Assembly (NCBI RefSeq): GCF_900156675.1
Contig: NZ_FTOH01000001.1
Span: 310,001 to 374,000, forward strand
Source of the DNA: Thalassolituus maritimus
GTDB lineage: Bacteria; Pseudomonadota; Gammaproteobacteria; Pseudomonadales; Oceanobacteraceae
Length of the DNA: 64,000 nucleotides
Reading direction: 5' to 3'
In this document: in pieces, positions 20,818 through 34,933 of the stretch
Layout: the number at the start of each line of letters is the position of its first letter
Position numbering within the stretch: the first letter of the stretch is position 1
Made by a program: the position numbers and the translations under genes
The notes under the pieces: model-generated
The model's input: the letters and a program-made list of their open reading frames with translations, nothing else
Databases searched by the model: none
Told to the model about the DNA's origin: nothing

Positions 20818-23800
20818 TTGAAAGCACTCATAACAATAATTACGAGCGCGTGTTTACTGGTTGCCTGCGGTGGTGGTACTGGATCATCCGACGATACGCC
20901 AGCGCCTCCTGATACTGCACCTGCTACACCAGAAGAAGCCGTAGATACTGACGATGACGGTATTCCTGATTCCCAGGATGACGACATCGACGGCGATGGC
21001 GTACGCAATATAAATGATGCCTTTGTTTTTGATGCCTCCGAATGGCTGGATACCGATCGTGATGGCACCGGTGATAATGCTGATACCGATGACGACAACG
21101 ATGGTTTTCTGGATACGGTTGAGATTGAGTTGGGCACAGACCCTCTCGATGAAGAGTCTTTTCCCGCTGATCTGGATGGTGACGGAATCCCTGACGTCCT
21201 CGACGATGATATTGATAACGATGGTACGCCGAACGCTGCCGACGCGTTTCCTCTCGACCCTCTCGAACAAAGCGATTCTGATCTGGATGGCATCGGAGAT
21301 GTCGCAGATCCTGATGATGACAATGACGGCTACCCAGATACTGTCGAAGTTGTGGCAGGTACCGACCCTCTTGATGCCTCAAGCCATCCTGATGATCTCG
21401 ATGGGGATGGTATTCCTGACGCTACAGATTCGGACATTGATGGCGACGGTTATCTGAATGGTGATGATGATCTGCCTCTTGATCCCAATGAATGGCTGGA
21501 TACCGATGGCGATCTGATTGGTAATAACACGGATACTGATGACGACAACGATGGCTATTCCGACAGTGACGAAGTCGAAGCTGATTCTGACCCACTGGAT
21601 GTGAACGATAAGCCGGCAGACCTTGATGGCGACTTTATTCCAGATGTTCTTGATGACGATATAGATGGCGATGGCGTTCTGAATGGTGCAGACGCTTACC
21701 CATACGATCCAGAAAGGAGTGAGCCTGATGTTGTTACTGAGCCTACCGAACTGGACACTGAACTTCTGGCGCTTATCGCTGACATTGGGTTTGATCCATC
21801 TGAACTGACAGGTCGTGTCGTCCCTCAGCCCGGAGATGCTCTGGTCGAACTCGGCAAAGAGCTGTTTTTCTCCAGATCTCTCAGCTTTGGTGATGATGTG
21901 GCCTGTGCGAGTTGCCACGACCCAAGACTTGCTGGAACCGATAATCTCAGTTTGCCCGTCGGTGTTGGCGCTCATAATCCGCTGATTGTCGGACCTGGGC
22001 GCCGACATGATGGGAACTACTACATCGACCCTAAAGCTGACTTCGGGCCTAACGTTCCGCGCAATAGCCCTACAACGTTCAATATTGCCTTCTACGACAG
22101 GGCTATGTTCTGGGATGGGCGTATTGAAACCATCGAGTATGATGCTGTGCGCTCATATTATGTCGGCACGGATAGAAAATCAGAGAACGGGAAAGGAGAG
22201 TTAATACGCACTCCAGATAGTCACTTTGGAGGACCAGACACGAACGCAGGAGAGAACCTAACGGTAGCTCAAGCGCGCTTTCCGGTAACCTCAGTGGATG
22301 AAATGCGAGGCTTCTCGCCGGCGGCGGGCAGTTCTTCATATGATACTCGAGAGTTGCTGGCTTCTAAGCTACTCGCCAGAGGTTGGGAGAGCTATTTTAG
22401 AGAAGCCTTTGGTGACTATATTAGCTCTGATGAAGGATTGATAACTTATGATCGTATCGCCTTTGCGTTAGGTGAGTATCAGAGGTCGCAGGTGGCTCTC
22501 GATAATCCTTTTTTTGAGTATTTAAGTGGTAATCTTGGCGCGATAAACAGCAGTGCAAAGAGAGGAGCTATTGCTTTCTTCCGTAGAGACCGGGCCAGTT
22601 GCTCCGGATGTCATAGTGGACCGCACTTTTCAGATGAAAATTACTACCCATTAGCAACCCCTCAGATAGGCAGGGGAAAGAACGTCTTCTCGCAAGACTT
22701 TGGAAGATATAACGTTGTTGCAGATTCAAAAACGAAATACAGCTTTAGAACCCCAAGCCTGCTCAATGTGGCTTTAACCGAGCCTTATATGCACGCAGGT
22801 TCGATTGCCGATCTGAAGACAGCCGTGAAGTGGCATTTCGATCCGGTCAGTGAGCTATATAATTACGATTTTTCATTGGATCATCTAGCGCAGTTCAGCG
22901 GATTAGGCCTGGATACTAGTGAACATCAGAGGCAGGTTGATTCTATAGCCAGTCAATTCACGTCCTGGAAAGCCACGAATAGCCAACGCTCTAAGGTAAA
23001 GCTCGGAACTATTGATGATACAGGACTGGAAGATTATGTTGCCTTACTAAGATCACTAAGCTCAGCGTGTCTTACTGACCACAGCTGCACAGCAAAATGG
23101 ATGCCCGACTATACCGAGCCTTCGCCCGATGGTATGAGGTTAGAGCCTGTTTTTTCTTTCTTTGACAATAGTGAGATTTTTAGTATTTCAGAACCCTCAC
23201 CGGAAGATCCAGTGCAACCAGCGTTTCCGGATCTATCCGGTGTTTTAGCTCTTGATCTTTCTCAGTGCTCATTGGCTGATGTAACAAGCCCTCTTCAGGT
23301 AGAGATAACCCCAGGGTTTAAGCGTGCGAATCTGCTTAGCTTTCTCGATTCTCATGAAATTGGATATCAAGTACTTTCCGATGTTCGATCTCTTGCAGAA
23401 ACTGCTCTTGTCATTGGCTCTATAGCAGCAGCAGATCTGGATGGAGATTGTGATTTTGATTTGGCTATCGGACTCGGTGATAAAAAAGGGATAAAAATAT
23501 ATATTAATCAAAATGGTCAATTTCAAAAAGCTGTCGATAACTTCGGATTAGATACGCGTGGAGATATTGCTGCTTTCTCTATTACTGATATTAATGGTGA
23601 TGGCTGGCCTGATATTTTTGTCGGTCACCTCTACGAGACCGATTCAAAATTATGGCTTAATAATGGCGGAAGTGGTTTTATTCGTGTAACGGAATTTGGC
23701 CACAACACTATCCGGACGACGCATAATGCTGCCTTCGCCGATGTCGACTCAGATGGTGATCTCGATTTGTTCAGTAGTAACTGGGATACGTTAAGCATGC

Positions 23801-25059
23801 TGGATGAAGTTCACTTATGGGAAAATGATGGCCGTGGATTCTTTACTCCCAGAATTGATGATGGAACCTACGGTGACTTTGGCTCCAGGGACTACACTTT
23901 TACTCCTAGCTTCACTGATATAGACAAAGACGGAATTACAGATTTATTGGTCGCAGCTGACTTCCGAACCACCCAAGTTTTTTCAGGGCTTGGAGATGGA
24001 GTGTTTGAGAATATCACCGATAGCGACGTCATTACTGATAGGAATGCAATGGGTAGCGCCCTTGGCGACTACGATAATGATGGTGATTTAGACTGGTTTG
24101 TAACCAATATTCACTTCAATGAATATGATGATGAATTGATTAATCGATTTTATCGCAATGACTCGTCTTCTCAAGAGGGTATTATCTTTTCTGAGATAGC
24201 TGTCCAAGCTGGGGTCTCTGAAGGAGACTGGGGGTGGGGGGCTTGCATGAAGGACTTCGATAATGATGGCTGGCTGGATATTTTTCAGGTAAATGGCTTT
24301 GGTTATGATAACAGTACCTTTGGACATCCAATATTTGACGTGATCGGATGGGTCGGGGTTACTGATATCTATGCCTTGGCAAGCGAAGATGTAAGTAGCC
24401 TTATCGAAAGTGCGTTAGAGTATTTCTCGGGCTTTGAGGCACTTAATAGCACTTTAGGTAACAGGTATAGCAGCGAGTCAGATTTCACAGCGGAGCTAAT
24501 AGCGATCCATACTGCAGCTAAGGTCTTAGCGCGCAGTCATGGGCGTGACACTGGTGTCCTTGCGGACTTTCATGGAACTCCTGCAAGATTGTATATGAAC
24601 AATAAGGATGGCACCTTCCGTGAGGAAGCTGCATTGCGTCATATTGATGATACTGGTGAAGGCCGGGGAATTGCCTGTAATGACTTTGATCGAGATGGCG
24701 ATATCGACATCGTAATTATGAACCACAATGGATTTCCATCGTATTATGAAAATCATTTCCGTCGTTTAATTACTGCGGACGACAACTTCCTGAATGTAAG
24801 ACTGCGTGGGGTAGGTGGTAATCAATTCGCTTACGGTGCCAAGGTATATGCGACCAGTGAAACACTCAACCAGTACCGGGAAATGCGTTTTGAGAATAAT
24901 TACATGTCCAATAATGCACCAGAGCTACACTTCGGCTTAGCAGGCGATGACGCTGTCAGCGAACTGCGAGTCGAGTGGCCAGACGGGGAAGTTACCATTC
25001 TGAGTGATGTTCCGGTTAACCAGTTCATGGTTATTGAGCATCCATCCTACAATGACTGA
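20818..25059 (+). CDS. Giant multidomain lipoprotein: TSP3 repeats, MauG/CCP di-heme domain, FG-GAP/VCBS, ASPIC/UnbV
   Basis: This 1413-residue secreted lipoprotein starts at TTG 20818, and the lipobox LLVAC ends a short signal peptide. Glycine after the cysteine predicts the outer membrane. Residues 43-300 are acidic thrombospondin-type-3 calcium-binding repeats. Residues about 310-790 form a di-heme MauG/cytochrome c peroxidase domain with heme sites CASCH (363-367) and CSGCH (595-599) and the family motif FRTPSLLNVALTEPYMHAGS. Residues about 860-1320 hold FG-GAP/VCBS beta-propeller-type units such as AAADLDGDCDFDLAIGLGD and SALGDYDNDGDLDWFVTN. The last 80 residues are an ASPIC/UnbV domain (LHFGLAGDDAVSELRVEWPDG). 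The order of modules is unusual. The central part is visibly more AT-rich than the calcium-repeat part. A TonB-dependent receptor gene follows after 88 bases. Confidence 0.88.
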   Translation: MKALITIITSACLLVACGGGTGSSDDTPAPPDTAPATPEEAVDTDDDGIPDSQDDDIDGDGVRNINDAFVFDASEWLDTDRDGTGDNADTDDDNDGFLDTVEIELGTDPLDEESFPADLDGDGIPDVLDDDIDNDGTPNAADAFPLDPLEQSDSDLDGIGDVADPDDDNDGYPDTVEVVAGTDPLDASSHPDDLDGDGIPDATDSDIDGDGYLNGDDDLPLDPNEWLDTDGDLIGNNTDTDDDNDGYSDSDEVEADSDPLDVNDKPADLDGDFIPDVLDDDIDGDGVLNGADAYPYDPERSEPDVVTEPTELDTELLALIADIGFDPSELTGRVVPQPGDALVELGKELFFSRSLSFGDDVACASCHDPRLAGTDNLSLPVGVGAHNPLIVGPGRRHDGNYYIDPKADFGPNVPRNSPTTFNIAFYDRAMFWDGRIETIEYDAVRSYYVGTDRKSENGKGELIRTPDSHFGGPDTNAGENLTVAQARFPVTSVDEMRGFSPAAGSSSYDTRELLASKLLARGWESYFREAFGDYISSDEGLITYDRIAFALGEYQRSQVALDNPFFEYLSGNLGAINSSAKRGAIAFFRRDRASCSGCHSGPHFSDENYYPLATPQIGRGKNVFSQDFGRYNVVADSKTKYSFRTPSLLNVALTEPYMHAGSIADLKTAVKWHFDPVSELYNYDFSLDHLAQFSGLGLDTSEHQRQVDSIASQFTSWKATNSQRSKVKLGTIDDTGLEDYVALLRSLSSACLTDHSCTAKWMPDYTEPSPDGMRLEPVFSFFDNSEIFSISEPSPEDPVQPAFPDLSGVLALDLSQCSLADVTSPLQVEITPGFKRANLLSFLDSHEIGYQVLSDVRSLAETALVIGSIAAADLDGDCDFDLAIGLGDKKGIKIYINQNGQFQKAVDNFGLDTRGDIAAFSITDINGDGWPDIFVGHLYETDSKLWLNNGGSGFIRVTEFGHNTIRTTHNAAFADVDSDGDLDLFSSNWDTLSMLDEVHLWENDGRGFFTPRIDDGTYGDFGSRDYTFTPSFTDIDKDGITDLLVAADFRTTQVFSGLGDGVFENITDSDVITDRNAMGSALGDYDNDGDLDWFVTNIHFNEYDDELINRFYRNDSSSQEGIIFSEIAVQAGVSEGDWGWGACMKDFDNDGWLDIFQVNGFGYDNSTFGHPIFDVIGWVGVTDIYALASEDVSSLIESALEYFSGFEALNSTLGNRYSSESDFTAELIAIHTAAKVLARSHGRDTGVLADFHGTPARLYMNNKDGTFREEAALRHIDDTGEGRGIACNDFDRDGDIDIVIMNHNGFPSYYENHFRRLITADDNFLNVRLRGVGGNQFAYGAKVYATSETLNQYREMRFENNYMSNNAPELHFGLAGDDAVSELRVEWPDGEVTILSDVPVNQFMVIEHPSYND
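20944..21715 (+). repeat. Coding supra-repeat of exactly 225 bp (75 residues)
   Basis: Within the giant lipoprotein the G(or F)-IPD landmark recurs at 20959, 21184, 21409 and 21634, exactly 225 bases apart each time. Each 75-residue unit reads as DLDGDGIPD..., DIDGDG..N..D..PLDP.EW, then D.DDDNDGY.D..EV...DPLD. About three and a half units are present with no insertion or deletion, but DNA identity is only partial, so selection on spacing is likely. The Asp-rich loops are calcium-binding TSP3 type. Confidence 0.9.
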
Positions 25060-25112
25060 TATGTAACAAATCCGTCATGAAGCTGTAGTAAATTCGCCTC
25101 CGTTTCATTCTC

Positions 25113-25143
25113 GGGGGCGTGCGCCCCCAGTAATTACCGGGGG
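25113..25143 (+). promoter_or_regulatory. Hairpin overlapping the TonB-receptor ribosome-binding region
   Basis: GGGGGC (25113-25118) and GCCCCC (25123-25128) form a 6-bp GC hairpin with tetraloop GTGC. The same C-tract (25124-25128) can instead pair with GGGGG at 25139-25143, which is the ribosome-binding site of the receptor gene (ATG 25148). Two exclusive folds, one hiding the site and one exposing it, are therefore possible. Regulation is inferred. Confidence 0.5.
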
Positions 25144-25147
25144 AATC

Positions 25148-28138
25148 ATGAGTTTTAAGCGCCTCATCAGTACGGCCGCGATCACCAGTAGTTTCTGCCT
25201 CGCGACAGCGCATGCAGCAGAAGTTGTATTTTACATCACCGAAGACGGTGGCGCGGCTGACGCCGTATCCGTTTCTGTTAATGGCCAGCGGCGGATAGTC
25301 AATCCTCAGGGCTTTGTTACCTTTGAACTGCCTGCTGACAGTTACACCGCTGAATTGTCGCAATACGGTGCCTGGGTAGGAGAGGCTGATTTCACCCTTG
25401 AAAATGACGACTCTTCAAAAGATGTATTTGTCGAGATTTTAGGTGGCGAAGCCATTGCTGAAACCAGCTCGTCTGACGCCGCTGGCGGTGTAATCAAAGG
25501 TCAGTTGATATCCAACGAAACAGGTGGCCCCGTTTCAGGTGCACGGGTATCTGCGGCAGGTACAGAACTTGGTGTGATTACTGACGACGATGGCAATTTC
25601 TCACTCGAATTACCGCGCGGTAACTACACCCTGACTGTTGCTCATCCAAGCTATCAGAGAGCTGAACTTAACGTTAATAGCATGCCTGGCGTACCGGTTG
25701 ACCTGAATGTTGAGGTCGGAATGTCCGGGAATGGCGTCATCGAAGAGGTTGTTGCGGTTGGTACTTATGTCGCAGACTCTGCAACCAGTCAGGAACGTGA
25801 TGCCAGCGCGGTCCTGGATTCGATTGGCGGCGAACAGATGTCTCGCTTTGGTGATTCTAACGCGGCTTCTGCGTTGAAGCGTGTGGCGGGCGTGACCATT
25901 GCAGATGGTAAATACGTCGTCGCTCGTGGCCTGAATGAACGTCATACATCGATTCTACTGAATGGTGCCTCATTGCCGAGTCCTGACCCATCCCGTCGGG
26001 TCGTACCTCTCGATCTATTTCCGTCCAGTGTGATTGATGGAATCGACGTTCAGAAAACGGCCACTCCGGATGTATATGCAGATTCAACGGGTAGCACAGT
26101 CTCTTTGAGTACTAAAAAGTTCCCTCTGGAATTTGAAGGGAAGCTGTCTCTGTCTTTGGGGTATAACGATAGTGCTACCTTTACTGAGCAGGAATTTATG
26201 CAGGAAGAAGGTGGAGACTTTTTCGGCTTCGGTGCAGATGGCGATAGAGCGCTGAATCAGGATGCTAAAGAGTTCAGTAGTGAGAGCCTGCTTTTTAATC
26301 CTGAACTTGGTAAGAACCTGGTTGCAGAGTTGCCTGACAATCTGAATACAGAAGAACGAAACGTCCTACCTGATATTTCTGCAGAGCTATCTATGGGGGA
26401 TACATTTTACGACAACGGTAATACTGCATACGGTTACCAGGCATCTGTCAAATTCTCTAACGAATGGCAAGTTCAGGAAAGAGAGTCCGATACCAACCTG
26501 CTTGGAGAGGATGGCGAGCTCAACGTTGATGACTCATACGATGAAACACGGACAACTAACGACGTGAATCTTGGGTTTGGACTGAGTTTAGGAATGCTCT
26601 CGGGCATACATGAAGTCACCAGTAATACCTTATTGCTTCGTCAGACCCACTCGGAAACCAGTGTTAAACGTGGTACAGGTGGAGACCAGGATCGTGAGGG
26701 AATTCTATACAATATGGACTGGTTGGAGCGCCAGCTATTCATGCAGCAGTTCACAGGCGAACACTATTTTGATCGTTTCCTAAAAACGACAGCGCAATGG
26801 CAGATAAGTTTTTCTGAGGCTGAATTGGATAACCCGGATCGGCGTCGGTATACCTATGAAATTCCTGCTTTTGATGAGGGGCTGGATGACTATTACCTTT
26901 ATTGGAGTGAGGTAAAGCGAGAGTACAATACGCTTTCTGATTCGATCACAGATTATAGTGTCAGTTTCGACTCTTCTCTTTTCGAGTCGTCCACAAATTA
27001 CCTGACAGCAGACTATGGCTTCTCAGCTTTTACCCGTGAGCGTGAAGCTGATGGCACGACGCTTGGCTACGATGCAAACAGTGGTCTGGCGGGTGACTAT
27101 ATTAACAATTTCGATATCGATCAGATCGTAACCGAAACCATCGCCGCCGATGAGCTTAGCCTTCTCAATCAGACCGCAGGTTCGGCAGACTATAATGCCT
27201 CATGGGATATGACGGCTCTGTTTGGTGGTATCGAGTATGAACGCCTTGAAGTCTTCCGGGTCAATGCGGGACTTCGTAGCGAGTCCTCTGATATTTCAGT
27301 ACAAACGTACGAGTCTAGTGCTCAGGATCAAAGTAACCCCATTTATGCAGAAATCTCTGACTCTAATGTGTATCCATCAGCTGGTTTAACAGTTTTTCTT
27401 GGCGAGAGTGTTCAGCTTAGAGGTGCCTGGTATCAGACTATTAACCGTCCAGATTTTCGTGAACTCGCTAATGCGCAGTACGTCGACCCCGATACTGGCG
27501 ACAATATACGAGGCTACCCTCTGCTTGAAAGTGCGGAGATTACCAATATCGATGTTCGTGCTGAATGGTACATGAGTGAAAATGAAAGCATTAGCCTCGC
27601 TTATTTTACCAAGAACTTTGACAAGCCAATCGAAAAGACATTACTGACCGGTGGATCGGTATTCTCATACCGTAATGGGGATACTGGTACCATCAATGGT
27701 GTCGAAATCGACTTCAGGTCGGAATTTGATCTCAGCAGTTACTTAATGTTTGTTTCGGGAAATCTATCTTTAATTGATTCTGAAGTAGATATTGCATTTC
27801 GCTCACGAGCTATGCAAGGGCAGCCCGATAGTCTGGCGAATGTTCAGATAGGGCTTGATGATTACGACAGTCAACAGAAATTCACACTGGTGTATAACTA
27901 TCATGGTGAGCTACTGTACTCAGCAACTCAGGCCAATAGTAATTCACCGGATATTATGGAAGATCCGAGAGGCGAGTTAAGTGCGAACTATTCAACAGAA
28001 ATTGTACCGGATCTTACGTTTAAAGTGGCTTTGAAGAACATTACAGATGAGCCCGTCAGTCTCACACAAAAAGGTGAAAACTATCGCTCCTATCGTAAAG
28101 GGCGTGAGGTCTCTGCCGGTATTTCGTTGGTTTTCTGA
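25148..28138 (+). CDS. TonB-dependent outer-membrane receptor with N-terminal beta-sandwich domains
   Basis: This is a 996-residue receptor. The signal peptide ends at AHA-AEV (about residue 24). A first beta-sandwich (about 25-95) and a carboxypeptidase-regulatory-like domain (about 115-195, KGQLISNETGGPVSGARVSAAG) precede a TonB-box-like stretch IEEVVAVGTYVAD. The plug (about 220-335) follows with SRFGDSNAASALKRVAGVTI, VARGLNERHTSILLNGASLP and VIDGIDVQKT. The 22-strand barrel ends in a terminal phenylalanine (SAGISLVF), the outer-membrane insertion signal. The two leading domains place it near Oar/SusC-like receptors rather than classical siderophore receptors. It lies between the di-heme lipoprotein and the beta-helix lipoprotein, upstream of a full TonB motor. 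Ligand unknown. Confidence 0.93.
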   Translation: MSFKRLISTAAITSSFCLATAHAAEVVFYITEDGGAADAVSVSVNGQRRIVNPQGFVTFELPADSYTAELSQYGAWVGEADFTLENDDSSKDVFVEILGGEAIAETSSSDAAGGVIKGQLISNETGGPVSGARVSAAGTELGVITDDDGNFSLELPRGNYTLTVAHPSYQRAELNVNSMPGVPVDLNVEVGMSGNGVIEEVVAVGTYVADSATSQERDASAVLDSIGGEQMSRFGDSNAASALKRVAGVTIADGKYVVARGLNERHTSILLNGASLPSPDPSRRVVPLDLFPSSVIDGIDVQKTATPDVYADSTGSTVSLSTKKFPLEFEGKLSLSLGYNDSATFTEQEFMQEEGGDFFGFGADGDRALNQDAKEFSSESLLFNPELGKNLVAELPDNLNTEERNVLPDISAELSMGDTFYDNGNTAYGYQASVKFSNEWQVQERESDTNLLGEDGELNVDDSYDETRTTNDVNLGFGLSLGMLSGIHEVTSNTLLLRQTHSETSVKRGTGGDQDREGILYNMDWLERQLFMQQFTGEHYFDRFLKTTAQWQISFSEAELDNPDRRRYTYEIPAFDEGLDDYYLYWSEVKREYNTLSDSITDYSVSFDSSLFESSTNYLTADYGFSAFTREREADGTTLGYDANSGLAGDYINNFDIDQIVTETIAADELSLLNQTAGSADYNASWDMTALFGGIEYERLEVFRVNAGLRSESSDISVQTYESSAQDQSNPIYAEISDSNVYPSAGLTVFLGESVQLRGAWYQTINRPDFRELANAQYVDPDTGDNIRGYPLLESAEITNIDVRAEWYMSENESISLAYFTKNFDKPIEKTLLTGGSVFSYRNGDTGTINGVEIDFRSEFDLSSYLMFVSGNLSLIDSEVDIAFRSRAMQGQPDSLANVQIGLDDYDSQQKFTLVYNYHGELLYSATQANSNSPDIMEDPRGELSANYSTEIVPDLTFKVALKNITDEPVSLTQKGENYRSYRKGREVSAGISLVF

Positions 28139-28154
28139 TAAAGCGTTTTATAAA

Positions 28155-28180
28155 AAATCCCGCATTCGGCGGGATTTTTT
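28155..28180 (+). terminator. Terminator after the TonB receptor
   Basis: AAATCCCGC and GCGGGATTT form a 9-bp stem with loop ATTCG, running into a T-tract. It ends the lipoprotein-receptor unit. Confidence 0.93.
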
Positions 28181-28264
28181 TTATCTTTCATAAAAGTGTC
28201 ACACAGTGGCCATAGCATGTGTCTCGTCAAGTTCTTAACCAGATTAACTAACCAAGGAATTACC

Positions 28265-29692
28265 ATGGAACTTAAAAAACTTCTTGTTGCTATGACTGCT
28301 GTTTCTGCAGCTATGCTGACAGCGTGTGGCGGCGACAGCTCTTCATCAAATAATACAACTACACCAACTACGCCTACTGTTACTGATAACACTTGTAGCG
28401 TTGGTGTTGGTAAAGAACTGGATACTACTTACTCCGTTGATGGTGTGGATATGCCAGTATGTCTGCTCAGTGGCAGCATTCTGACTGACGCAACACTGAC
28501 TACCGACTATGTGTACAGCATGACTGACTACGTTACTGTTGGTGATGGTGCAGGCGAACTGACTTCCTACGATGCTCCAAGTGAAGTAACTCTGACTATT
28601 GACCCAGGTGTTGCTTTCCGCTCGACCTCTAAGGGTACTCTGATCATCTCTCGTGGCTCTAAGATCAATGCCAACGGTACTGCAGAGGCGCCAATCGTTA
28701 TGTCTTCTATTGATGACAACTACGAAGGCAATAAAGAGTGGGGCGGTCTGGTAGTTCAGGGTTTCGCTAAGAATAACCAGTGTGCGAATGAATATGCAGC
28801 GACTCCAGAAGAAATCTGTAACACAGCTGACGAAGCTGATACCGGTTTCCATGGCGGTAACGACGATGCTGACAACAGCGGTTCTATTTCTTACCTGATC
28901 GTTGCTGAAGGCGGTTACGAAGTTGTTGCTGATAGTGAAATTAACGGTATCACTATGCACTCAGTGGGCTACGGCACAACTGTAGAAAACGTTATGGTTT
29001 ATAACAATTACGATGATGGCATCGAGTTCTTCGGTGGTTCAGTAAATGTTAAACACCTGATTCTGGTCGACAATGGTGATGAGTCAATCGACTGGGATGA
29101 CGGCTATCGCGGTAACATTCAGTTCTCTCTTGTTCGACAGGGCGTAACCAATGCGGGTGACAATGGTATCGAAGCGGATAACGCTGGCCTGAGCAACACA
29201 GCTGAGCCAGTTTCTAATCCTACTCTTTCAAACATCACTTTCCAGACTGCTTCTGAAGGTTCTGCATACCTGATGCGTGCGAAGGTAGGTACCTACGGCA
29301 CTCTGACTAAGATTGCTGCAGATAACTATGCCAAAGCATTCCGTATCGCTGATACAGAGACAACTGTTGTATTGACCGACTCTCTGGTTGAATATACAGG
29401 TATGGATGCAGAAGATACTCTGCGTCTGGAAAATAGCGCTACAGAAGGTCAGATCACTGGTTGGGGAGCAAGCTCAACTTCCGACAACGTTGCTCTGGGT
29501 AATGCTTTTGAAGTAACCGGTGGCAATGGTTCAGTAACTGCAAGCACAGCGACTAGCGCAAATGCTTCTACAGGCTTCTTTGAAGAAACTGACTACATCG
29601 GTGCGGTTGACCCGACTGTTACTGCTGCAGAAAGCGCTTGGTGGGCATGGGCAGCTGACGTAATCCCAGCAGCCTTCGAAACTGAAGAATAA
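28265..29692 (+). CDS. Beta-helix surface lipoprotein
   Basis: The frame opens at GTG 28196, but ATG 28265 has AAGGA 7 bases upstream and gives a proper lipoprotein signal with lipobox LTAC (cysteine near residue 20). The mature protein of about 455 residues begins with a Thr/Pro/Ser linker. A beta-rich repeat body follows with GTLIISRGSKINANGTAEAP, FHGGNDDADNSGSISYLIV, INGITMHSVGYGTTVENV, YNNYDDGIEFFGGSVNVKHL and DNGDESIDWDDGYRG. These motifs match a broad family of right-handed beta-helix lipoproteins that I associate with TonB receptors in Bacteroidetes and Proteobacteria. The C-terminus has a tryptophan cluster (SAWWAWAADVIP). It probably acts as a surface substrate-binding partner of the receptor; this is inference. 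Confidence 0.78.
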   Translation: MELKKLLVAMTAVSAAMLTACGGDSSSSNNTTTPTTPTVTDNTCSVGVGKELDTTYSVDGVDMPVCLLSGSILTDATLTTDYVYSMTDYVTVGDGAGELTSYDAPSEVTLTIDPGVAFRSTSKGTLIISRGSKINANGTAEAPIVMSSIDDNYEGNKEWGGLVVQGFAKNNQCANEYAATPEEICNTADEADTGFHGGNDDADNSGSISYLIVAEGGYEVVADSEINGITMHSVGYGTTVENVMVYNNYDDGIEFFGGSVNVKHLILVDNGDESIDWDDGYRGNIQFSLVRQGVTNAGDNGIEADNAGLSNTAEPVSNPTLSNITFQTASEGSAYLMRAKVGTYGTLTKIAADNYAKAFRIADTETTVVLTDSLVEYTGMDAEDTLRLENSATEGQITGWGASSTSDNVALGNAFEVTGGNGSVTASTATSANASTGFFEETDYIGAVDPTVTAAESAWWAWAADVIPAAFETEE

Positions 29693-29712
29693 GTCACTTA
29701 TTCTTGCGAGAC

Positions 29713-29738
29713 AAACGGCACCTTCGGGTGCCGTTTTT
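29713..29738 (+). terminator. Terminator after the beta-helix lipoprotein
   Basis: AAACGGCACC and GGTGCCGTTT form a 10-bp stem with a TTCG tetraloop, followed by T-rich sequence. Confidence 0.93.
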
Positions 29739-29746
29739 CGTTTTGC

Positions 29747-29760
29747 GACATTTGTATGTC
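29747..29760. promoter_or_regulatory. Palindrome in the promoter region of the TonB2-type operon
   Basis: GACAT (29747-29751) and ATGTC (29756-29760) form a small palindrome about 110 bases before the first gene of the operon. Further TGTCA-type motifs (ATGTCAC and TTGTCAT) lie at about 29784-29801. They could be operator half-sites. No clear Fur-box match was seen. Confidence 0.3.
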
Positions 29761-29872
29761 ATTTGTTCGTAGTAATTCTGCAATGTCACAGAATTGTCAT
29801 CTTTTCTTCGTATTCTTCTCGCGAATTCAGAAACGCCGGTTTCCGGCCATTCTTTTTAATTGGGTATTTAAC

Positions 29873-30664
29873 ATGGCAACAACCAAACGCCAGACGTCGC
29901 GCCTTCTGAGCGCTATCGCTATTGCTGGTATGAGTTTTACAGGCGTCGCCTCTGCTGCAACGCTGGATGATGCAGTTGAGCAGGGTGTCGAGCGTGTAGA
30001 GAAGGCACAGGCTTCTCAGCAGACCATCGATTCTATCGACAAAGACATTCGTGCTACCGAGCGTGATTACCGTGCACTGATGAAAGAAATCGAAGGCCTG
30101 AATGTCTATATCTCGCAGCTGGATCGTCAGCTCGACGCTCAGGCAAAAGACCTGGCGAGCATCGATAAAAGCATGAGTCAGGCAGCGCTGGTTGAACGCC
30201 AGATCACTCCTCTGATGCTGCGTATGATTGATGCTGTTAATCAGTTTGTAGCAGCAGATGTACCTTTCCTGAAAGAAGAGCGTATGGCGCGTGTTTCCAA
30301 ACTGAATGACCTGATGGGGCGTTCTGACGTTACCGCGGCTGAGAAGTATCGCAAGGTGATGGAGGCCTATCAGGCAGAGATCGAATACGGCCGTACCATC
30401 GAGTCATATCGTGGTGAGCTGGAAGGCGAAACGCCGCGTGAAGTCGACTTCCTGCGTATTGGCCGTATCGCTCTGGTGTACCAGTCTCTGGACGGACAGG
30501 AGCTGGGTATCTGGAATACGAATTCCAACAGCTGGCAGCCTCTGGCGCCAGAGTATAAGAGCAAAGTGATGGCGGGCATCCGTATTGCTCGTGAACAGGC
30601 TGCGCCAGATCTGATTAAAGTTCCGGTTGCTGCTCCTATGATGGCTCAACAGGAGGCGAACTGA
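29873..30664 (+). CDS. DUF3450 periplasmic coiled-coil protein
   Basis: The longest frame starts at GTG 29756, but ATG 29873 gives a clean signal peptide (cleavage near ASA-ATLDD), so the protein is 263 residues. The mature N-terminal half is a long coiled coil (about 35-120, with RDYRALMKEIEGLNVYISQL). The C-terminal half has the family sequence REVDFLRIGRIALVYQSLDG and LGIWNTNSNSWQPL. DUF3450 proteins are encoded directly before TtpC-type ExbB proteins in Vibrio and Shewanella TonB2 loci. The stop overlaps the next start (TGATG). The role is probably structural, in the periplasmic part of the energy-coupling complex. Confidence 0.85.
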   Translation: MATTKRQTSRLLSAIAIAGMSFTGVASAATLDDAVEQGVERVEKAQASQQTIDSIDKDIRATERDYRALMKEIEGLNVYISQLDRQLDAQAKDLASIDKSMSQAALVERQITPLMLRMIDAVNQFVAADVPFLKEERMARVSKLNDLMGRSDVTAAEKYRKVMEAYQAEIEYGRTIESYRGELEGETPREVDFLRIGRIALVYQSLDGQELGIWNTNSNSWQPLAPEYKSKVMAGIRIAREQAAPDLIKVPVAAPMMAQQEAN

Positions 30665-32034
30665 TGAAACTCCGTAATGTATTTTTAAGCGGTGTGTTTG
30701 CACTGGCGATGCCGATGGTATCTGTTGCTGAGACAGCAAACCTTGATCAGCTTCTGAACCTGGTGAAAGAAGGTCAGGCGCGCGACAACGCAGCTTTCGA
30801 ACAGCGCATTGCTGAATTCCAGGGCTCAAAAGCGAAGCAGGAACAGTTGGTGCGTGAAGCGACGGCTGAGCGCGATCGTCTTGAAGCATTGAGTGCTGAT
30901 AAAGAAGCGCAGTTCCGTGATAACGAACTGATCGTTGCTGAAAAACAAGCGCAGTTAAATGATCGTTTAGGTAGCCTGAAAGAACTCTTCGGTGTGCTGC
31001 AGCAGGTTGCTGGCGATACCAAGAGTGTTTTTGAAGGCTCTGTTATCAGCTCGGAACTGCCAGGTCGTGAAGCATTCCTGACTGACCTTATCCGTGTTGC
31101 AGGCGCCACCTCTGAACTGCCATCCATTGAGCAGCTTGAGCGTCTCTGGTTTGAGATGCAGCGTGAAGCAACTTACAGCGGCCGCATTGCAAGCTACAGA
31201 GCGGACGTCGTTACTCCTAGTGGTGAAACCACTCAGCAGCAGGTTGTTCGTATTGGTGGGTTCAACGCGGTTTCTGACGGTAAGTACCTGAACTGGGACA
31301 TTGAATCAGCGCGACTGATCGAGATGGATAAGCAGCCGGGTGCACGTTACACCGATGGAATTACAGCTCTCGAATCTGCGAGCGGAAGTGAATTGACCGG
31401 TTTCTGGATTGATCCTTCTCGTGGCCAGTTACTGAAAATTATGGGCCAGTCGCCAGAACTGGGTGATCGCGTAGACCAGGGTGGTGTTGTTGGTTACATC
31501 ATTCTCGCACTGGGTGCCGTAGGTATTCTGCTGGCTATCTGGCGCATGATTGTTCTGAACATCGAAGCAGGTCGTATCAGCAAACAGATGAAGACCGAGA
31601 CGGTTGATGAAAAGAATGCGCTTGGTCGTGTGATGGCTGTATTTAATGCGAATAAGAAAAGCGACACCGAAACCCTCGAGTTGCACCTGGGTGAAGCCAT
31701 TGCCGCAGAAATTCCACGTCTGACACGCGGTATCGGCTGGATCAAAATCATCTCAGTGGTTGCTCCGCTGCTCGGTCTTCTGGGTACGGTGACCGGCATG
31801 ATCGATGTGTTCGAAACCATGTCGCTGTTCGGTACGGGTGACCCGAAACTGATGGCCGGTGGTATTTCTCAGGCGCTGGTGACTACTGTACTGGGTCTCG
31901 TTGCAGCAATTCCATGTGTCTTCCTGCACACCCTGACCAACAACCGTAGCCGTGCACTGATCATGATTCTGGAAGAGCGCGCCACCGGTATTCTGGCTCG
32001 CCAGTCTGAACAGCAACAAGCGAAAGCAGCCTGA
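30664..32034 (+). CDS. ttpC: TtpC-type MotA/TolQ/ExbB proton channel family protein
   Basis: This 456-residue protein has a signal peptide (about 1-22), a periplasmic coiled-coil and beta domain of about 250 residues, and then an ExbB-like membrane part. Transmembrane segments lie at about 276-300 (GYIILALGAVGILLAIWRMIVL), 360-385 (IKIISVVAPLLGLLGTVTGM) and 405-425 (ALVTTVLGLVAAIPCVFL). The LGLLGTVTGMIDVF motif is the family signature. In Vibrio, TtpC is an extra component that the TonB2 system needs, beside the normal ExbB2. Its N-terminal extension, absent from ordinary ExbB, matches that description. It abuts exbB after a single spacer base pair of codons. Confidence 0.88.
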   Translation: MKLRNVFLSGVFALAMPMVSVAETANLDQLLNLVKEGQARDNAAFEQRIAEFQGSKAKQEQLVREATAERDRLEALSADKEAQFRDNELIVAEKQAQLNDRLGSLKELFGVLQQVAGDTKSVFEGSVISSELPGREAFLTDLIRVAGATSELPSIEQLERLWFEMQREATYSGRIASYRADVVTPSGETTQQQVVRIGGFNAVSDGKYLNWDIESARLIEMDKQPGARYTDGITALESASGSELTGFWIDPSRGQLLKIMGQSPELGDRVDQGGVVGYIILALGAVGILLAIWRMIVLNIEAGRISKQMKTETVDEKNALGRVMAVFNANKKSDTETLELHLGEAIAAEIPRLTRGIGWIKIISVVAPLLGLLGTVTGMIDVFETMSLFGTGDPKLMAGGISQALVTTVLGLVAAIPCVFLHTLTNNRSRALIMILEERATGILARQSEQQQAKAA

Positions 32035-32036
32035 TC

Positions 32037-32561
32037 ATGATGTTTGGTGAAGTATACGAACCGGTATATCTGTTCATGGAGCGTGGAGGCGATGTCCTCT
32101 ACGCCATCTTCGGACTGATTCTGCTGCTCTGGTTGTTTGTACTGGAGCGTGCCGGGTACTTCGCATTTTCTCACCGCAACGCTATGCAGCGTGCGGTGAA
32201 TGAATGGGAAGCTCGTACCGAGCGTAAATCCTGGGCAGCACATCAGATTCGTGAAGACCTGATTGCCTCCCTACGCTCAGACCTGGAAGCCAACATGACC
32301 ACGATCAAAATGCTGATCGGCATGGCGCCTCTGTTTGGTCTGCTCGGTACGGTAACCGGCATGATTGAAGTATTTGACGTTATGGCATTTTTTGGCAACG
32401 GCAGCCCCAAAGCAATGGCTTCCGGTATTTCCAAAGCCACGATTCCAACCATGGCTGGAATGGTAGGTGCCCTGACGGGAGTGTTCGCTCAGTCGATGCT
32501 TGAGCGATACATCAAACGAGAAAAAATCCGTATCGAAGATCGTCTGACCTTCGATCATTAA
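32037..32561 (+). CDS. exbB2: ExbB-type proton channel subunit (TonB2 system)
   Basis: This 174-residue ExbB/TolQ has three membrane helices at about 17-38, 85-110 and 128-155. The hallmark GMAPLFGLLGTVTGMIEVFDVM, which lines the proton path, is followed by GNGSPKAMASGISKATIPTMAG. It forms the pentameric channel that harvests proton-motive force with ExbD to drive TonB. It begins 2 bases after the ttpC stop and is followed by exbD after 15 bases. It is shorter than E. coli ExbB and lacks its long N-terminus, as is usual in TonB2-type systems. Confidence 0.92.
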   Translation: MMFGEVYEPVYLFMERGGDVLYAIFGLILLLWLFVLERAGYFAFSHRNAMQRAVNEWEARTERKSWAAHQIREDLIASLRSDLEANMTTIKMLIGMAPLFGLLGTVTGMIEVFDVMAFFGNGSPKAMASGISKATIPTMAGMVGALTGVFAQSMLERYIKREKIRIEDRLTFDH

Positions 32562-32576
32562 TTCGGGAAAAAGATT

Positions 32577-32987
32577 ATGAGACGCAGTTTTTCTGCCAGT
32601 CAGCAAGTAGAAGCCGAGGGCGAGATTGATATCACCCCGATGCTGGACGTTGTATTTATTATGCTGATCTTCTTTATCGTGACCGCGTCGTTCGTTAAAG
32701 AATCAGGTATTGAAGTTAATCGTCCTGATGCGAGCACCGCGCAGGCGAAGCCACGCGCAAACATTCTGATCGCCATTAATGAAAATGACGAGATCTGGAT
32801 TAATAAACGCCGCGTTGATGAGAGTCAGGTTCGCGCAAATATCGAGCGTCTGCATGCTGAAAATCCGCAGGGAACCGTTGTGATCCAGGCGGATGAAGAA
32901 GCGAAGACCCGTAAGCTGGTGGCAGTGATGGATGCTGCACGTCAGGCCGGAGTCTACGACGTCTCACTGGCTACAGAGGCGATGTAA
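32577..32987 (+). CDS. exbD2: ExbD-type biopolymer transporter
   Basis: This 136-residue protein has a short cytoplasmic N-terminus, one transmembrane helix (about 22-43) and a periplasmic domain. The motif DITPMLDVVFIMLIFFIVTA contains the essential membrane aspartate at about D24, equivalent to Asp25 of E. coli ExbD. The periplasmic part ends with VMDAARQAGVYDVSLATE, as in the family. It sits in the ExbB pentamer and couples proton flow to TonB. A GGGAAAAAG stretch precedes the ATG. The tonB gene begins one base after its stop codon. Confidence 0.94.
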   Translation: MRRSFSASQQVEAEGEIDITPMLDVVFIMLIFFIVTASFVKESGIEVNRPDASTAQAKPRANILIAINENDEIWINKRRVDESQVRANIERLHAENPQGTVVIQADEEAKTRKLVAVMDAARQAGVYDVSLATEAM

Positions 32988-32988
32988 G

Positions 32989-33603
32989 ATGCCGGTTGTT
33001 GTCCGTTTTGGTGGCGCCCTTGCTGTCGCATTCGTCGCTACCATCGCTGTCTTCTGGATGATGCAGAGCCTCATCAGTACTGGTGGCTCAGTCACCATGC
33101 CGACTGATTATGGCCGTATTCAGAGCTTTGTGATGAATGAGCCAGACGATGAAGTACAGACGAAAGATCGTCAGCCTGAAAAGCCACCTGCACCGCCGCA
33201 GGAGCCGCCACAGCCAGACATGGTGAAGCCTGAGTTTAACTCTCAGAATGCGGCTGATTTAGCACTCGGTGCACTGGATATCTCTGCAGACCTTGCTCTG
33301 GATGCAGGCTTGAGTGGCGCAGGCAGTGACGGTGAGTTCATGCCGATCGTTAAAGTTGCGCCGACCTACCCACGCCGTGCAGCACAGCGCGGTATAGAGG
33401 GCTATGTCGTTGTCGAGTTCACCGTAACCTCATTGGGCACTGTGACAGAACCTGTAGTACTGGAAGCAGAACCTCCGGGCGTATTCGACAAGGCTGCTTT
33501 GGATGCAGTTAAGAAATTTAAATATAAACCCCAGGTAGTTGAGGGAAGTGCAGTAGATGTACCCGGGGTTCGTAACATTATCCGCTTCGAGCTGGATAAG
33601 TAA
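32989..33603 (+). CDS. tonB2: TonB-type energy transducer
   Basis: The frame is open from 32932, but the ATG at 32989, just after the exbD stop, gives the natural start (204 residues). A transmembrane anchor lies at about 8-30, a proline-rich linker at about 62-80 (EKPPAPPQEPPQPDMVKP), and a C-terminal TonB domain at about 115-204. The last contains KVAPTYPRRAAQRGIEGYVV and FDKAALDAVKKFKYKPQV, the classic YP..A...G.EG motif. It should span the periplasm and pull on TonB boxes of receptors, presumably including the one upstream. The linker is short compared with E. coli TonB, as in TonB2 proteins. Confidence 0.94.
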   Translation: MPVVVRFGGALAVAFVATIAVFWMMQSLISTGGSVTMPTDYGRIQSFVMNEPDDEVQTKDRQPEKPPAPPQEPPQPDMVKPEFNSQNAADLALGALDISADLALDAGLSGAGSDGEFMPIVKVAPTYPRRAAQRGIEGYVVVEFTVTSLGTVTEPVVLEAEPPGVFDKAALDAVKKFKYKPQVVEGSAVDVPGVRNIIRFELDK

Positions 33604-33628
33604 CGTATAAAACTGGAGTGAGTGTTTT

Positions 33629-34933
33629 ATGAAAAAGTTACCATTAGCATTAGTAATGAGTGCATTGTTGGGCAGCCTGCCTTTTGTGGCTGTACAGTCT
33701 GTCTCTGCTGCTGAGGAAACGGCTGAGAATTCGCAAGAAGAAGCCTCAGCAGGCCCTCGCGTGCGCAGAACTATGACGCTGCGTGAGATCGTATTTGAGA
33801 AGCTCGAAGAAGCACAGCAGGCTGCTGATGCCGGTAACTTTGACGAAGCCCTGCAGACACTCGAACGATTAGAAAAGCGGAAGCGTAATTCATACGAGCG
33901 TGCGATGACGCACAATATGTATGCCTACGTTTACTCGACTCAGGAAAATTACGCCGCGGCCATCCCTGAGTACGCAAAAGTGATTGAGATTGACAACGCA
34001 CCAGACAGCCTGAAGCAGACGACCCGTTACACGCTGGCAAAACTGTATATGTTGCAGGAGCGCTATGCAGAATCTCTGGCTACCATTGATGAGTGGATGT
34101 CACATTCAGACAAAGTGAATGCAGACGCTTACATGTTCCGGGCACAGGTTCAGTACCAGCAGGAAAAGTATGAACTTGCCGGTGAGGATATTGCTACCGC
34201 AATTTCAATGCGTGAAGAAGCAGGTTCTCGCGTTACCGAAAGCTGGTTGCTACTGCAACGTGCCGTGATGTTTCAGCTGAAAGACTATGAAGGTCTGGCT
34301 GTCACTCTTGAGAAGCTTGTAGCGACGTACTCAAAGTCTGAATACTGGATGCAGCTGGCCGCAGTTTATAATGAACTGGGTCGTGAAGATCAGGAGCTGG
34401 CGACGTTGGAAACGGCTTACGATCAGAAGCTTTTTACTAAAGAGTCTGAATATCTCAATTTCGCTCAGGCGCTGCTGAGCAGAGAAATTCCTTATAAAGC
34501 TGCGCATGTATTAGAAGACGGAATGGAAGCTGACGTTGTCGAGAAAAGCGCTCGCAATCTGTCATTGTTGGGGGATGCCTGGATGTTGGCCAAAGAATAC
34601 GACAATGCGATTGTCGTGATGACACAGGCAGCGGATGAATCTGGTGAAGGACGCGATTATTTCAAGCTCGCGCAGATCTATACTGAGCGTCAGGAATGGA
34701 GTAAGTCACTTGAATTCAGTAATAAAGCGCTGAACGCGGGTGATCTGAAGGCACCTTATCAGGCATTAATTATCAAAGGGCTTGCTCAGTACAATCTGGA
34801 TGAACTGGAGTCTGCATCTATTACTTTCTTTAAAGCTGCATCATATCCAGCGGCAGAGAAAGTCGCTCATCAGTGGCAGGAATATATTGAGAGCGAGCAG
34901 CAGCGTCGGGAGTACATTGCCAACGCTGGTTAA
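33629..34933 (+). CDS. TPR-repeat protein of the TonB2-type operon
   Basis: This 434-residue protein has a signal peptide ending near SVSA-AEE. Helical tetratricopeptide-type repeats span most of the length (for example FDEALQTLERLEKRKR, YAAAIPEYAKVIEIDN, YAESLATIDEWM, YDNAIVVMTQAADESGE). It is secreted, probably to the periplasm. TPR proteins commonly close this operon type (DUF3450-ttpC-exbB-exbD-tonB-TPR). The spacing of 25 bases after tonB and the terminator right behind it support co-transcription. It may act as a scaffold that links the motor to other envelope proteins. Confidence 0.88.
   Translation: MKKLPLALVMSALLGSLPFVAVQSVSAAEETAENSQEEASAGPRVRRTMTLREIVFEKLEEAQQAADAGNFDEALQTLERLEKRKRNSYERAMTHNMYAYVYSTQENYAAAIPEYAKVIEIDNAPDSLKQTTRYTLAKLYMLQERYAESLATIDEWMSHSDKVNADAYMFRAQVQYQQEKYELAGEDIATAISMREEAGSRVTESWLLLQRAVMFQLKDYEGLAVTLEKLVATYSKSEYWMQLAAVYNELGREDQELATLETAYDQKLFTKESEYLNFAQALLSREIPYKAAHVLEDGMEADVVEKSARNLSLLGDAWMLAKEYDNAIVVMTQAADESGEGRDYFKLAQIYTERQEWSKSLEFSNKALNAGDLKAPYQALIIKGLAQYNLDELESASITFFKAASYPAAEKVAHQWQEYIESEQQRREYIANAG

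Follow-up and report, generated by a model that had tools for sequence, protein, structure and literature searches.

What kind of chemistry can be expected from a protein that joins a di-heme domain of the cytochrome c peroxidase (CCP)/MauG superfamily to a propeller in one chain, and is such a chain genuine? The question is raised by an open reading frame (ORF) in a 64-kb stretch of DNA (positions 310001–374000 of contig C18 in the 3.86-Mb genome G000), referred to below as the window. The ORF, here called the fusion, lies at 20818–25059 on the plus strand, has a TTG start and an uninterrupted reading frame, and encodes 1413 amino acids. Its architecture is recurrent and genuine, and uncharacterised as far as our literature search reaches: a unit of CCP, FG-GAP and UnbV domains recurs in Gammaproteobacteria, with His at the predicted sixth-ligand position of the second heme. 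The reading that we prefer, and hold tentatively, is that of a di-heme peroxidase from the CCP/MauG superfamily, anchored to the cell envelope, whose fused FG-GAP/UnbV propeller resembles CRTAC1 and binds a substrate or partner.

Domain architecture and structure models

Four Pfam families matched the fusion above their curated cut-offs, namely FG-GAP_3 (E 1.4e-30, four stretches, 106.1 bits against a cut-off of 26.9), CCP_MauG (PF03150; E 1.1e-28, 101.1 bits against 25.6), UnbV_ASPIC (E 1.8e-17, 63.4 bits against 23.4) and TSP3_bac (E 1.7e-10, three stretches). Together with the lipobox L14-V15-A16-C17 read from the translation, they stand in the order lipobox, TSP3, CCP_MauG, FG-GAP and UnbV, as an earlier note made from the sequence had described, and the two CxxCH heme motifs that it listed are present at residues 363 and 595. 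The CCP_MauG match and the two CxxCH motifs place the fusion in the CCP_MauG superfamily, and the FG-GAP repeats followed by UnbV_ASPIC place it also among the CRTAC1-like FG-GAP/UnbV proteins. The residue at +2 of the lipobox (LVAC-G) is not Asp, and sorting to the outer membrane is predicted.

The CCP part, modelled from 93 sequences and without heme, had a mean predicted local distance difference test score (pLDDT) of 95.4 and matched the structures of MacA, bacterial CCP, a MauG-like copper-linked protein (6e1c) and MauG, which, with the Pfam match, bears out the CCP/MauG fold proposed between the TSP3 and FG-GAP parts. By sequence, the closest solved structures were CCPs. The whole-chain model was weaker (pLDDT 64.3, predicted template modelling score 0.52) and too weak to judge contacts between domains; being of moderate quality, it was used for the propeller fold only. 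Its best match in the Protein Data Bank was murine CRTAC1 (9etn, E 4.2e-19, template modelling score 0.67 by target length), and the fungal lectins PVL and PAL were within the first 20 rows of the fold search.

The TTG start fits the homologues from G006 and G007, whose sequences open with MK and come to ACG at a comparable distance. Because the open frame is present in 11 other genomes, with 34–68% identity over residues 307–1413, the fusion is not an assembly accident. A tandem repeat search on the TSP3 DNA of the window returned 0 rows, and a viral contig scan gave no match. A stand-alone relative of the heme domain (537 amino acids, 39% identity) is encoded on another contig of the same genome (L046:9520-11133).

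Heme ligands and catalytic residues

The profile of 93 CCP domains was aligned with Pseudomonas aeruginosa CCP (1eb7), and positions were counted by hand. W94, Q104, E114 and M275 of 1eb7 corresponded to W432, Q485, E495 and H673 of the window fusion, and His71 corresponded to V383. The H673 column contained His in 35 domains, Tyr in 23, Met in 20 and Phe in one, with 14 gaps; that known or plausible ligands share this column supports its assignment as the ligand position. Since the position of Met275 is His673 in the window and His in 27/27 fused proteins (Met 0/27, Tyr 0/27), the second heme of the fusion is probably bis-His, with His673 as the predicted sixth ligand. Forty stand-alone rows of the subfamily had Tyr (19), His (17), Met (3) or a gap (1) here, and 36 more distant rows had Met (17), Tyr (4), His (1), Phe (1) or a gap (13). 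His at this position is fixed in the fusions and is not confined to them. The earlier note had assigned the axial ligand to the Met of the PYMH motif; this candidate was rejected, as Met658 is poorly conserved (16/93 CCP domains and 9/27 fused proteins, with His659 in 93/93) and the Met ligand of 1eb7 aligns with H673.

At the first heme, His is found at the His71 position in 0/27 fused proteins. Glu495 is present in 27/27 fused proteins and 93/93 CCP domains, Pro489 in 27/27 fused proteins, Gln485 in 24/27 and the inter-heme Trp432 in 17/27. The window fusion has neither the distal His (Val383) nor the axial Met (His673) of classical bacterial CCPs. An ordinary peroxide-scavenging CCP whose propeller merely anchors or stabilises it would agree with the CCPs as nearest solved structures and with the peroxide-activating Glu of all 93 domains, but both classical ligands are changed, and an envelope tether and long spacers would seem to sit badly with an enzyme that works in solution in the periplasm with cytochrome c or azurin; we consider this explanation quite unlikely.

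Another possibility is an enzyme similar to MauG, MbnH or SACCP whose target would be a Trp of a partner protein on the cell surface, with the propeller docking the partner. The first heme is MauG-like in lacking the distal His and conserving Gln, Pro and Glu. The three best NCBIfam matches of the fusion are MauG-like families, all below cut-off; the MauG equivalog TIGR03791 scored 98.6 bits against a cut-off of 443.85, and MbnH (TIGR04039) 109.3 bits against 362.85. SACCP is found with MopE on the surface of Methylococcus, where a role in making kynurenine has been proposed (PMC3912023). The second heme, however, has His673 in place of the axial Tyr of MauG, as have all 27 fused proteins, and two enzymes with this change no longer show the bis-Fe(IV) feature: the near-infrared feature is lost in BthA Y463H and MauG Y294H, and BthA Y463H still reduces H2O2, keeping peroxidase activity (PMC6405878). 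A constant partner gene was also not found, although no search was aimed at one; the family of the 498-residue protein encoded downstream of the fusion occurs in 53/93 relatives, compared with 12 of these 93 for the fused frame. Because heme 2 has His and not Tyr, bis-Fe(IV) tryptophan modification of the MauG type is less likely than peroxidase-type oxidation; guided by the published His variants of MauG and BthA, we favour an H2O2-driven peroxidase and judge a surface Trp oxidase unlikely.

A bis-His second heme also raises the case of a RoxA/FadCcp-like oxygenase whose substrate would be hydrophobic, in marine bacteria that use hydrocarbons. Thalassolituus and Oleibacter, which are hydrocarbon users, are among the relatives of the window. 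In RoxA the C-terminal heme is bis-His and the N-terminal heme binds O2, but His641 of RoxA lies 124 residues past PYFH517 (PMC6311187), as opposed to 14 residues past PYMH for the candidate of the fusion. The Pfam family RoxA-like_Cyt-c matched 1/6 fused proteins scanned, below cut-off, and no RoxA-like cytochrome c match was obtained in the window fusion at E 0.001. With the Catenovulum members located in a fructan locus, such an oxygenase is very unlikely.

Table 1 Features of the fusion and its downstream region in the window
Feature	Position	Strand	Basis
Signal peptide and lipobox LVA-C, predicted lipidated Cys17, Gly at +2	20818..20868	+	Translation
TSP3-like calcium repeats, approximately residues 43-297, variable spacer	20944..21708	+	Pfam TSP3_bac
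Di-heme CCP_MauG domain, approximately residues 307-790	21736..23187	+	Pfam, model, PDB matches
CASCH heme motif 1, putative peroxidatic heme, proximal His367	21904..21918	+	Motif and CCP alignment
Val383 at the His71 position of P. aeruginosa CCP	21964..21966	+	Profile alignment with 1eb7
Q485, P489 and E495, putative peroxide-activating set	22270..22302	+	Gln104/Glu114 in 1eb7, Gln103/Pro107/Glu113 in MauG
CSGCH heme motif 2, second heme, proximal His599	22600..22614	+	Motif and CCP alignment
PYMH motif (Met658, His659)	22783..22794	+	Alignment of 93 CCP domains
His673, predicted sixth ligand of second heme (Met275 in P. aeruginosa CCP, Tyr in MauG/BthA)	22834..22836	+	Alignment
Linker and FG-GAP propeller	23188..24807	+	Pfam FG-GAP_3, four stretches; CRTAC1 fold match
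UnbV/ASPIC domain, residues 1338-1403	24829..25026	+	Pfam
Pho-box-like 3 x 11-bp repeat between fusion and receptor gene	25062..25090	+	13/18 positions; 3/500 shuffles as good
TonB-dependent receptor, first gene of operon-like row 25148-34933	25148..28138	+	Pfam, region comparison

Distribution and phylogeny

Twelve fused proteins, including that of the window, were aligned first. The CCP alignment was then run against 84,980 species genomes, a scan that gave 234 pattern matches, 157 relatives and 80 kept loci; it rested on three short peptide patterns, and the fused counts are a lower bound. A CCP ORF was present in 80/80 kept loci, and CCP and propeller shared one frame in 15/80, corresponding to 16 proteins (Kistimonas has two in tandem). 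Whole-genome searches within the order (390 genomes) and the class (369), in which no more than two candidates per genome were scored, revealed further fused frames in Gammaproteobacteria, and eight loci with fused frames were then fetched and examined. The resulting table of 27 fused proteins includes near copies (three from Catenovulum; G001 and G008), and a 28th, from G300, entered the propeller tree only.

The earlier note knew of no protein with the full order, and no characterised CCP–FG-GAP–UnbV member was found in the open-access literature searched; the core recurs, and TSP3-like motifs precede the CCP domain in 5/27 fused proteins. In the remaining proteins this place is taken by PE-rich, TDTGSG, GDSGG or TNPEP linkers or by little sequence. 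The TSP3 part is an exchangeable, variable spacer, and the four-part order as a conserved unit is rejected.

The lipobox pattern occurs in 15/27 fused proteins, or 15/23 with an intact N-terminus. The 12 without it comprise three that start at a contig end (G002, G022 and L066), one in another frame (G005) and eight with other N-termini, which are the two Kistimonas copies and six from a family (f8) that holds Endozoicomonas contigs. Judged by this pattern, a lipid tether is not general, being absent from 8/23 intact N-termini. One lipobox (L062) has Asp at +2, a residue that in Escherichia coli leads to retention of lipoproteins in the inner membrane. The frame of the N-terminus in G005 (L037:3690-4100) differs from that of its relatives, reflecting either a draft-genome error or a real break.

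The trees were quick, with support from the Shimodaira–Hasegawa-like approximate likelihood ratio test only. A free search of the CCP tree (81 rows) placed stand-alone rows inside the fused ones. With four long rows dropped (B_L124, S_L081, S_L028 and S_L048), holding the 27 fused rows together against the 50 others gave an approximately unbiased test p-value of 0.829, and this constrained clade had a better likelihood than the free search; a single clade of fused CCP domains is not rejected. The propeller tree (43 rows) needed three changes, two of which starred branches make necessary; in it the propellers of Oleispira and Catenovulum adjoin stand-alone ones. The trees indicate a few fusion or fission events, and a single event is not claimed. 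The same heme domain occurs in another unusual fusion, a 1464-residue ORF (L048:188-4582) with sulfatase, Lcl_C and CCP_MauG in one chain.

Two genomes carry both halves as close separate genes, which suggests that the halves work together. In G494 the CCP and propeller genes are 4 bp apart, and in G213 they share a locus with two glycoside hydrolase family GH3 genes, a TonB receptor, a symporter and a LacI-type regulator. By Pfam, the separate propeller proteins have FG-GAP and UnbV only and no heme domain. Since the split CCPs sit among the stand-alone rows of the CCP tree, they are regarded as relatives and not as direct halves of the fused clade.

Genomic neighbourhood

In the window, the fusion is followed by genes for a TonB receptor, a 498-residue lipoprotein-like protein, a DUF3450 protein, a MotA/ExbB protein, ExbB, ExbD, TonB and a tetratricopeptide repeat protein, the labels ExbB, ExbD and TonB being presumed for three short ORFs from the gene order. 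This gene order is found in the window, G001, G002, G003, G006, G007 and G008, and, within the fetched stretch, in G023, with other genes between fusion and receptor in G006 and G023; the G005 contig ends at the fusion. The receptor row also occurs without the fusion, with DUF2333 directly upstream of the receptor in G009, G016 and G024 (13 further regions, G006 among them).

Between fusion and receptor lies the Pho-box-like repeat of Table 1, compared with what we take to be the PhoB box consensus. In 17/20 genomes examined, at most 6/500 mononucleotide shuffles were as good as the repeat upstream of the receptor, which was weaker against shuffles in G001 (18), G015 (65) and G014 (132 of 500). 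The upstream region of the fusion itself has no such element (best 10/18). The receptor operon is older, may be under PhoB control and also exists without the fusion. An operon of fusion and receptor as the functional unit in the window was rejected on the DUF2333–receptor order without the fusion and on the intervening Pho-box-like element, and their pairing in the window's genus may be positional. The genome contains 15 receptor plug domains, and by our own arithmetic approximately 4% of genes would have a receptor within 5 kb on either side by chance. A promoter scan found one promoter-like site near the start of the fusion gene against 0.5 expected and none between fusion and receptor, and a terminator scan found no terminator-like site.

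The strict Pho pattern occurred genome-wide at one site only, beside ORFs resembling sdhC/sdhD by eye. Of two PBP_like_2 genes, the lone one on contig C6 has a similar upstream element (11/12, 0/500 shuffles), and no Pho-box-like element was found upstream of the one approximately 4 kb from phoU on the same contig and strand, where a positive control would be expected to show it; with this control mixed in outcome, the Pho reading is unproven. The row at 25062-34933, recurrent across the family, is a possible phosphate-starvation TonB uptake system. Its 498-residue protein (28196-29692) has no Pfam or NCBIfam match, and the relatives of this protein in the 93 searched genomes adjoin the same TonB receptor in the fetched regions.

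Elsewhere the context differs; flank lengths vary between loci, and neighbouring ORFs were scanned in part. In Catenovulum (3/3 loci) the fusion lies in a fructan SusCD locus with the order LacI, GH32, SusC, SusD, fusion and a GH32-related gene, the last related by phmmer and without a Pfam match. A Woeseiaceae metagenome-assembled genome has the fusion beside an extracytoplasmic function sigma factor, FecR and a TonB receptor. Overall, TonB receptors are near 12/27 fused proteins, in three lineages (the window group with G023, Catenovulum and Woeseiaceae). The fusion follows DUF6160 genes in G334 and G149. A 1145-residue ORF with a SidE_PDE match below cut-off lies upstream of a further fused copy (L190:2-3436).

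The fused copy of G262 (L188:5865-9347) has a PilW match before it and a ComP-like pilin match after it, and that of G092 is next to pilin genes (PilW match). These genes, the pilin-like N-termini seen by eye beside the Kistimonas copies and the resemblance of the FG-GAP propeller to the lectins PVL and PAL would be consistent with an adhesin or pilus-linked surface protein whose heme domain serves structure or electron transfer only. The catalytic Glu and Pro of 27/27 fused proteins would be unexpected in a dead domain, and we give this explanation little credence. In Kistimonas (L055:3826-13248), two fused copies in a row are separated by an ORF with a pilin-like N-terminus and followed by a third, short CCP gene; one pilin-like ORF put to Pfam gave no match.

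A module similar to hydrazine synthase beta–gamma, with a propeller, a CCP-like domain and a bis-His second heme devoted to nitrogen-oxide chemistry, was considered because the CCP profile matches the gamma subunit (5c2v_C) over its second half with E 5.5e-15. Heme II of gamma is bis-His and beta is a propeller, fused beta–gamma homologues are described as widespread among environmental bacteria, and the clade I–III homologues have a CRTAC1-family gene beside them (PMC12758564). The domain order of the fusion is reversed, however, with CCP before propeller, its FG-GAP/UnbV propeller belongs to a different family, and no alpha-subunit match was obtained among the part of the neighbours put to Pfam, so that we regard nitrogen-oxide chemistry as highly improbable.

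Proposed function

The envelope-anchored peroxidase is thus preferred on the computed order of domains, a heme 1 that has lost its distal His, the retained Pro and Glu (usually with Gln) and the His at heme 2. In this protein, heme 1 would be five-coordinate and ready for H2O2, Glu495 would help to cleave the peroxide, and the bis-His heme 2 would receive or relay the oxidising equivalents. The propeller would offer a calcium-dependent binding face that presents the reductant, which may be a glycan, a metabolite or a partner protein, and the TSP3 or low-complexity linker would act as a stalk from the outer membrane. The observation in the earlier note was confirmed, and its interpretation is partly supported: a tethered heme enzyme with a binding role for its propeller would still be the most sensible reading, but the tether is not a general property of the family.

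Several points weigh against the peroxidase reading. No electron donor or substrate of the fusion was identified, its surface exposure is assumed, and its heme ligands are predictions from alignment. The His of heme 2 is not special to fused proteins, Gln485 is missing in 3/27 of them and Trp432 in 10/27. Context varies, with the Endozoicomonas-type copies of G092 and G262 lacking a lipobox and lying by pilin genes, and in other loci the large ORFs scanned included no TonB receptor. The fusion may not be co-transcribed with the receptor in the window, because it stands upstream of the receptor's Pho-box-like element and has none itself.

Whether such enzymes modify proteins through bis-Fe(IV) or act as peroxidases is believed to depend on the axial ligand of the second heme, Tyr going with the former. 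His at this position is otherwise known to us from engineered MauG and BthA variants. A natural family fixed on His would provide a direct test of the axial-ligand rule, with the stand-alone relatives carrying His, Tyr or Met as a natural comparison. We know of no bacterial function for FG-GAP/UnbV domains, on which the fusion offers a handle. A more speculative proposal, which as a whole we think rather improbable, is that the fusions form a natural branch of the CCP/MauG superfamily with bis-His ligation, whose CRTAC1-like propeller delivers its bound substrate, a glycan in the SusCD/GH loci, to a di-heme centre driven by peroxide at the outer membrane. Such a protein would amount to an oxidative counterpart of surface glycan-binding proteins, and propeller and CCP-like enzyme would have been joined independently for a second time, hydrazine synthase beta–gamma being the other case.

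Comparison with known systems

The fusion shares with classical bacterial CCPs the fold, two CxxCH hemes, the Gln/Glu pair and usually the inter-heme Trp, and differs from them in the missing distal His at heme 1, the His in place of Met at heme 2 and the added propeller and spacer. MauG, MbnH and BthA resemble it in a second heme without Met and, as described for MauG and BthA, in the absence of a distal His at heme 1 and the catalytic Gln, Pro and Glu; MauG and BthA, however, have Tyr where the fusion has His, and the propeller is fused in the fusion only. SACCP/CorB, which occurs with MopE/CorA in methanotrophs, lacks the propeller that the fusion adds; SACCP is a surface-associated di-heme relative of CCP, indicating that a member of this superfamily can reside on the cell surface (PMC3912023).

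RoxA, RoxB and FadCcp belong to the CCP superfamily as well, RoxA with a bis-His second heme (PMC6311187) and FadCcp with two His listed there (PMC4496055). In the P. aeruginosa FadCcp enzymes the His follows the MauG motif by 58–60 residues; in PA2077, H611 lies 58 residues after PYFH553 (PMC4496055), unlike His673 of the fusion with its aligned spacing of 14. No propeller is described for RoxA or FadCcp in the parts of PMC6311187 and PMC4496055 consulted. CRTAC1-family FG-GAP/UnbV proteins share the Pfam domains and fold of the C-terminal half. The nearest precedent for a propeller combined with a CCP-like enzyme is hydrazine synthase beta–gamma, where a propeller is linked to a CCP-like di-heme domain whose second heme is bis-His (PMC12758564), in the reverse order, with another propeller family and in different organisms.

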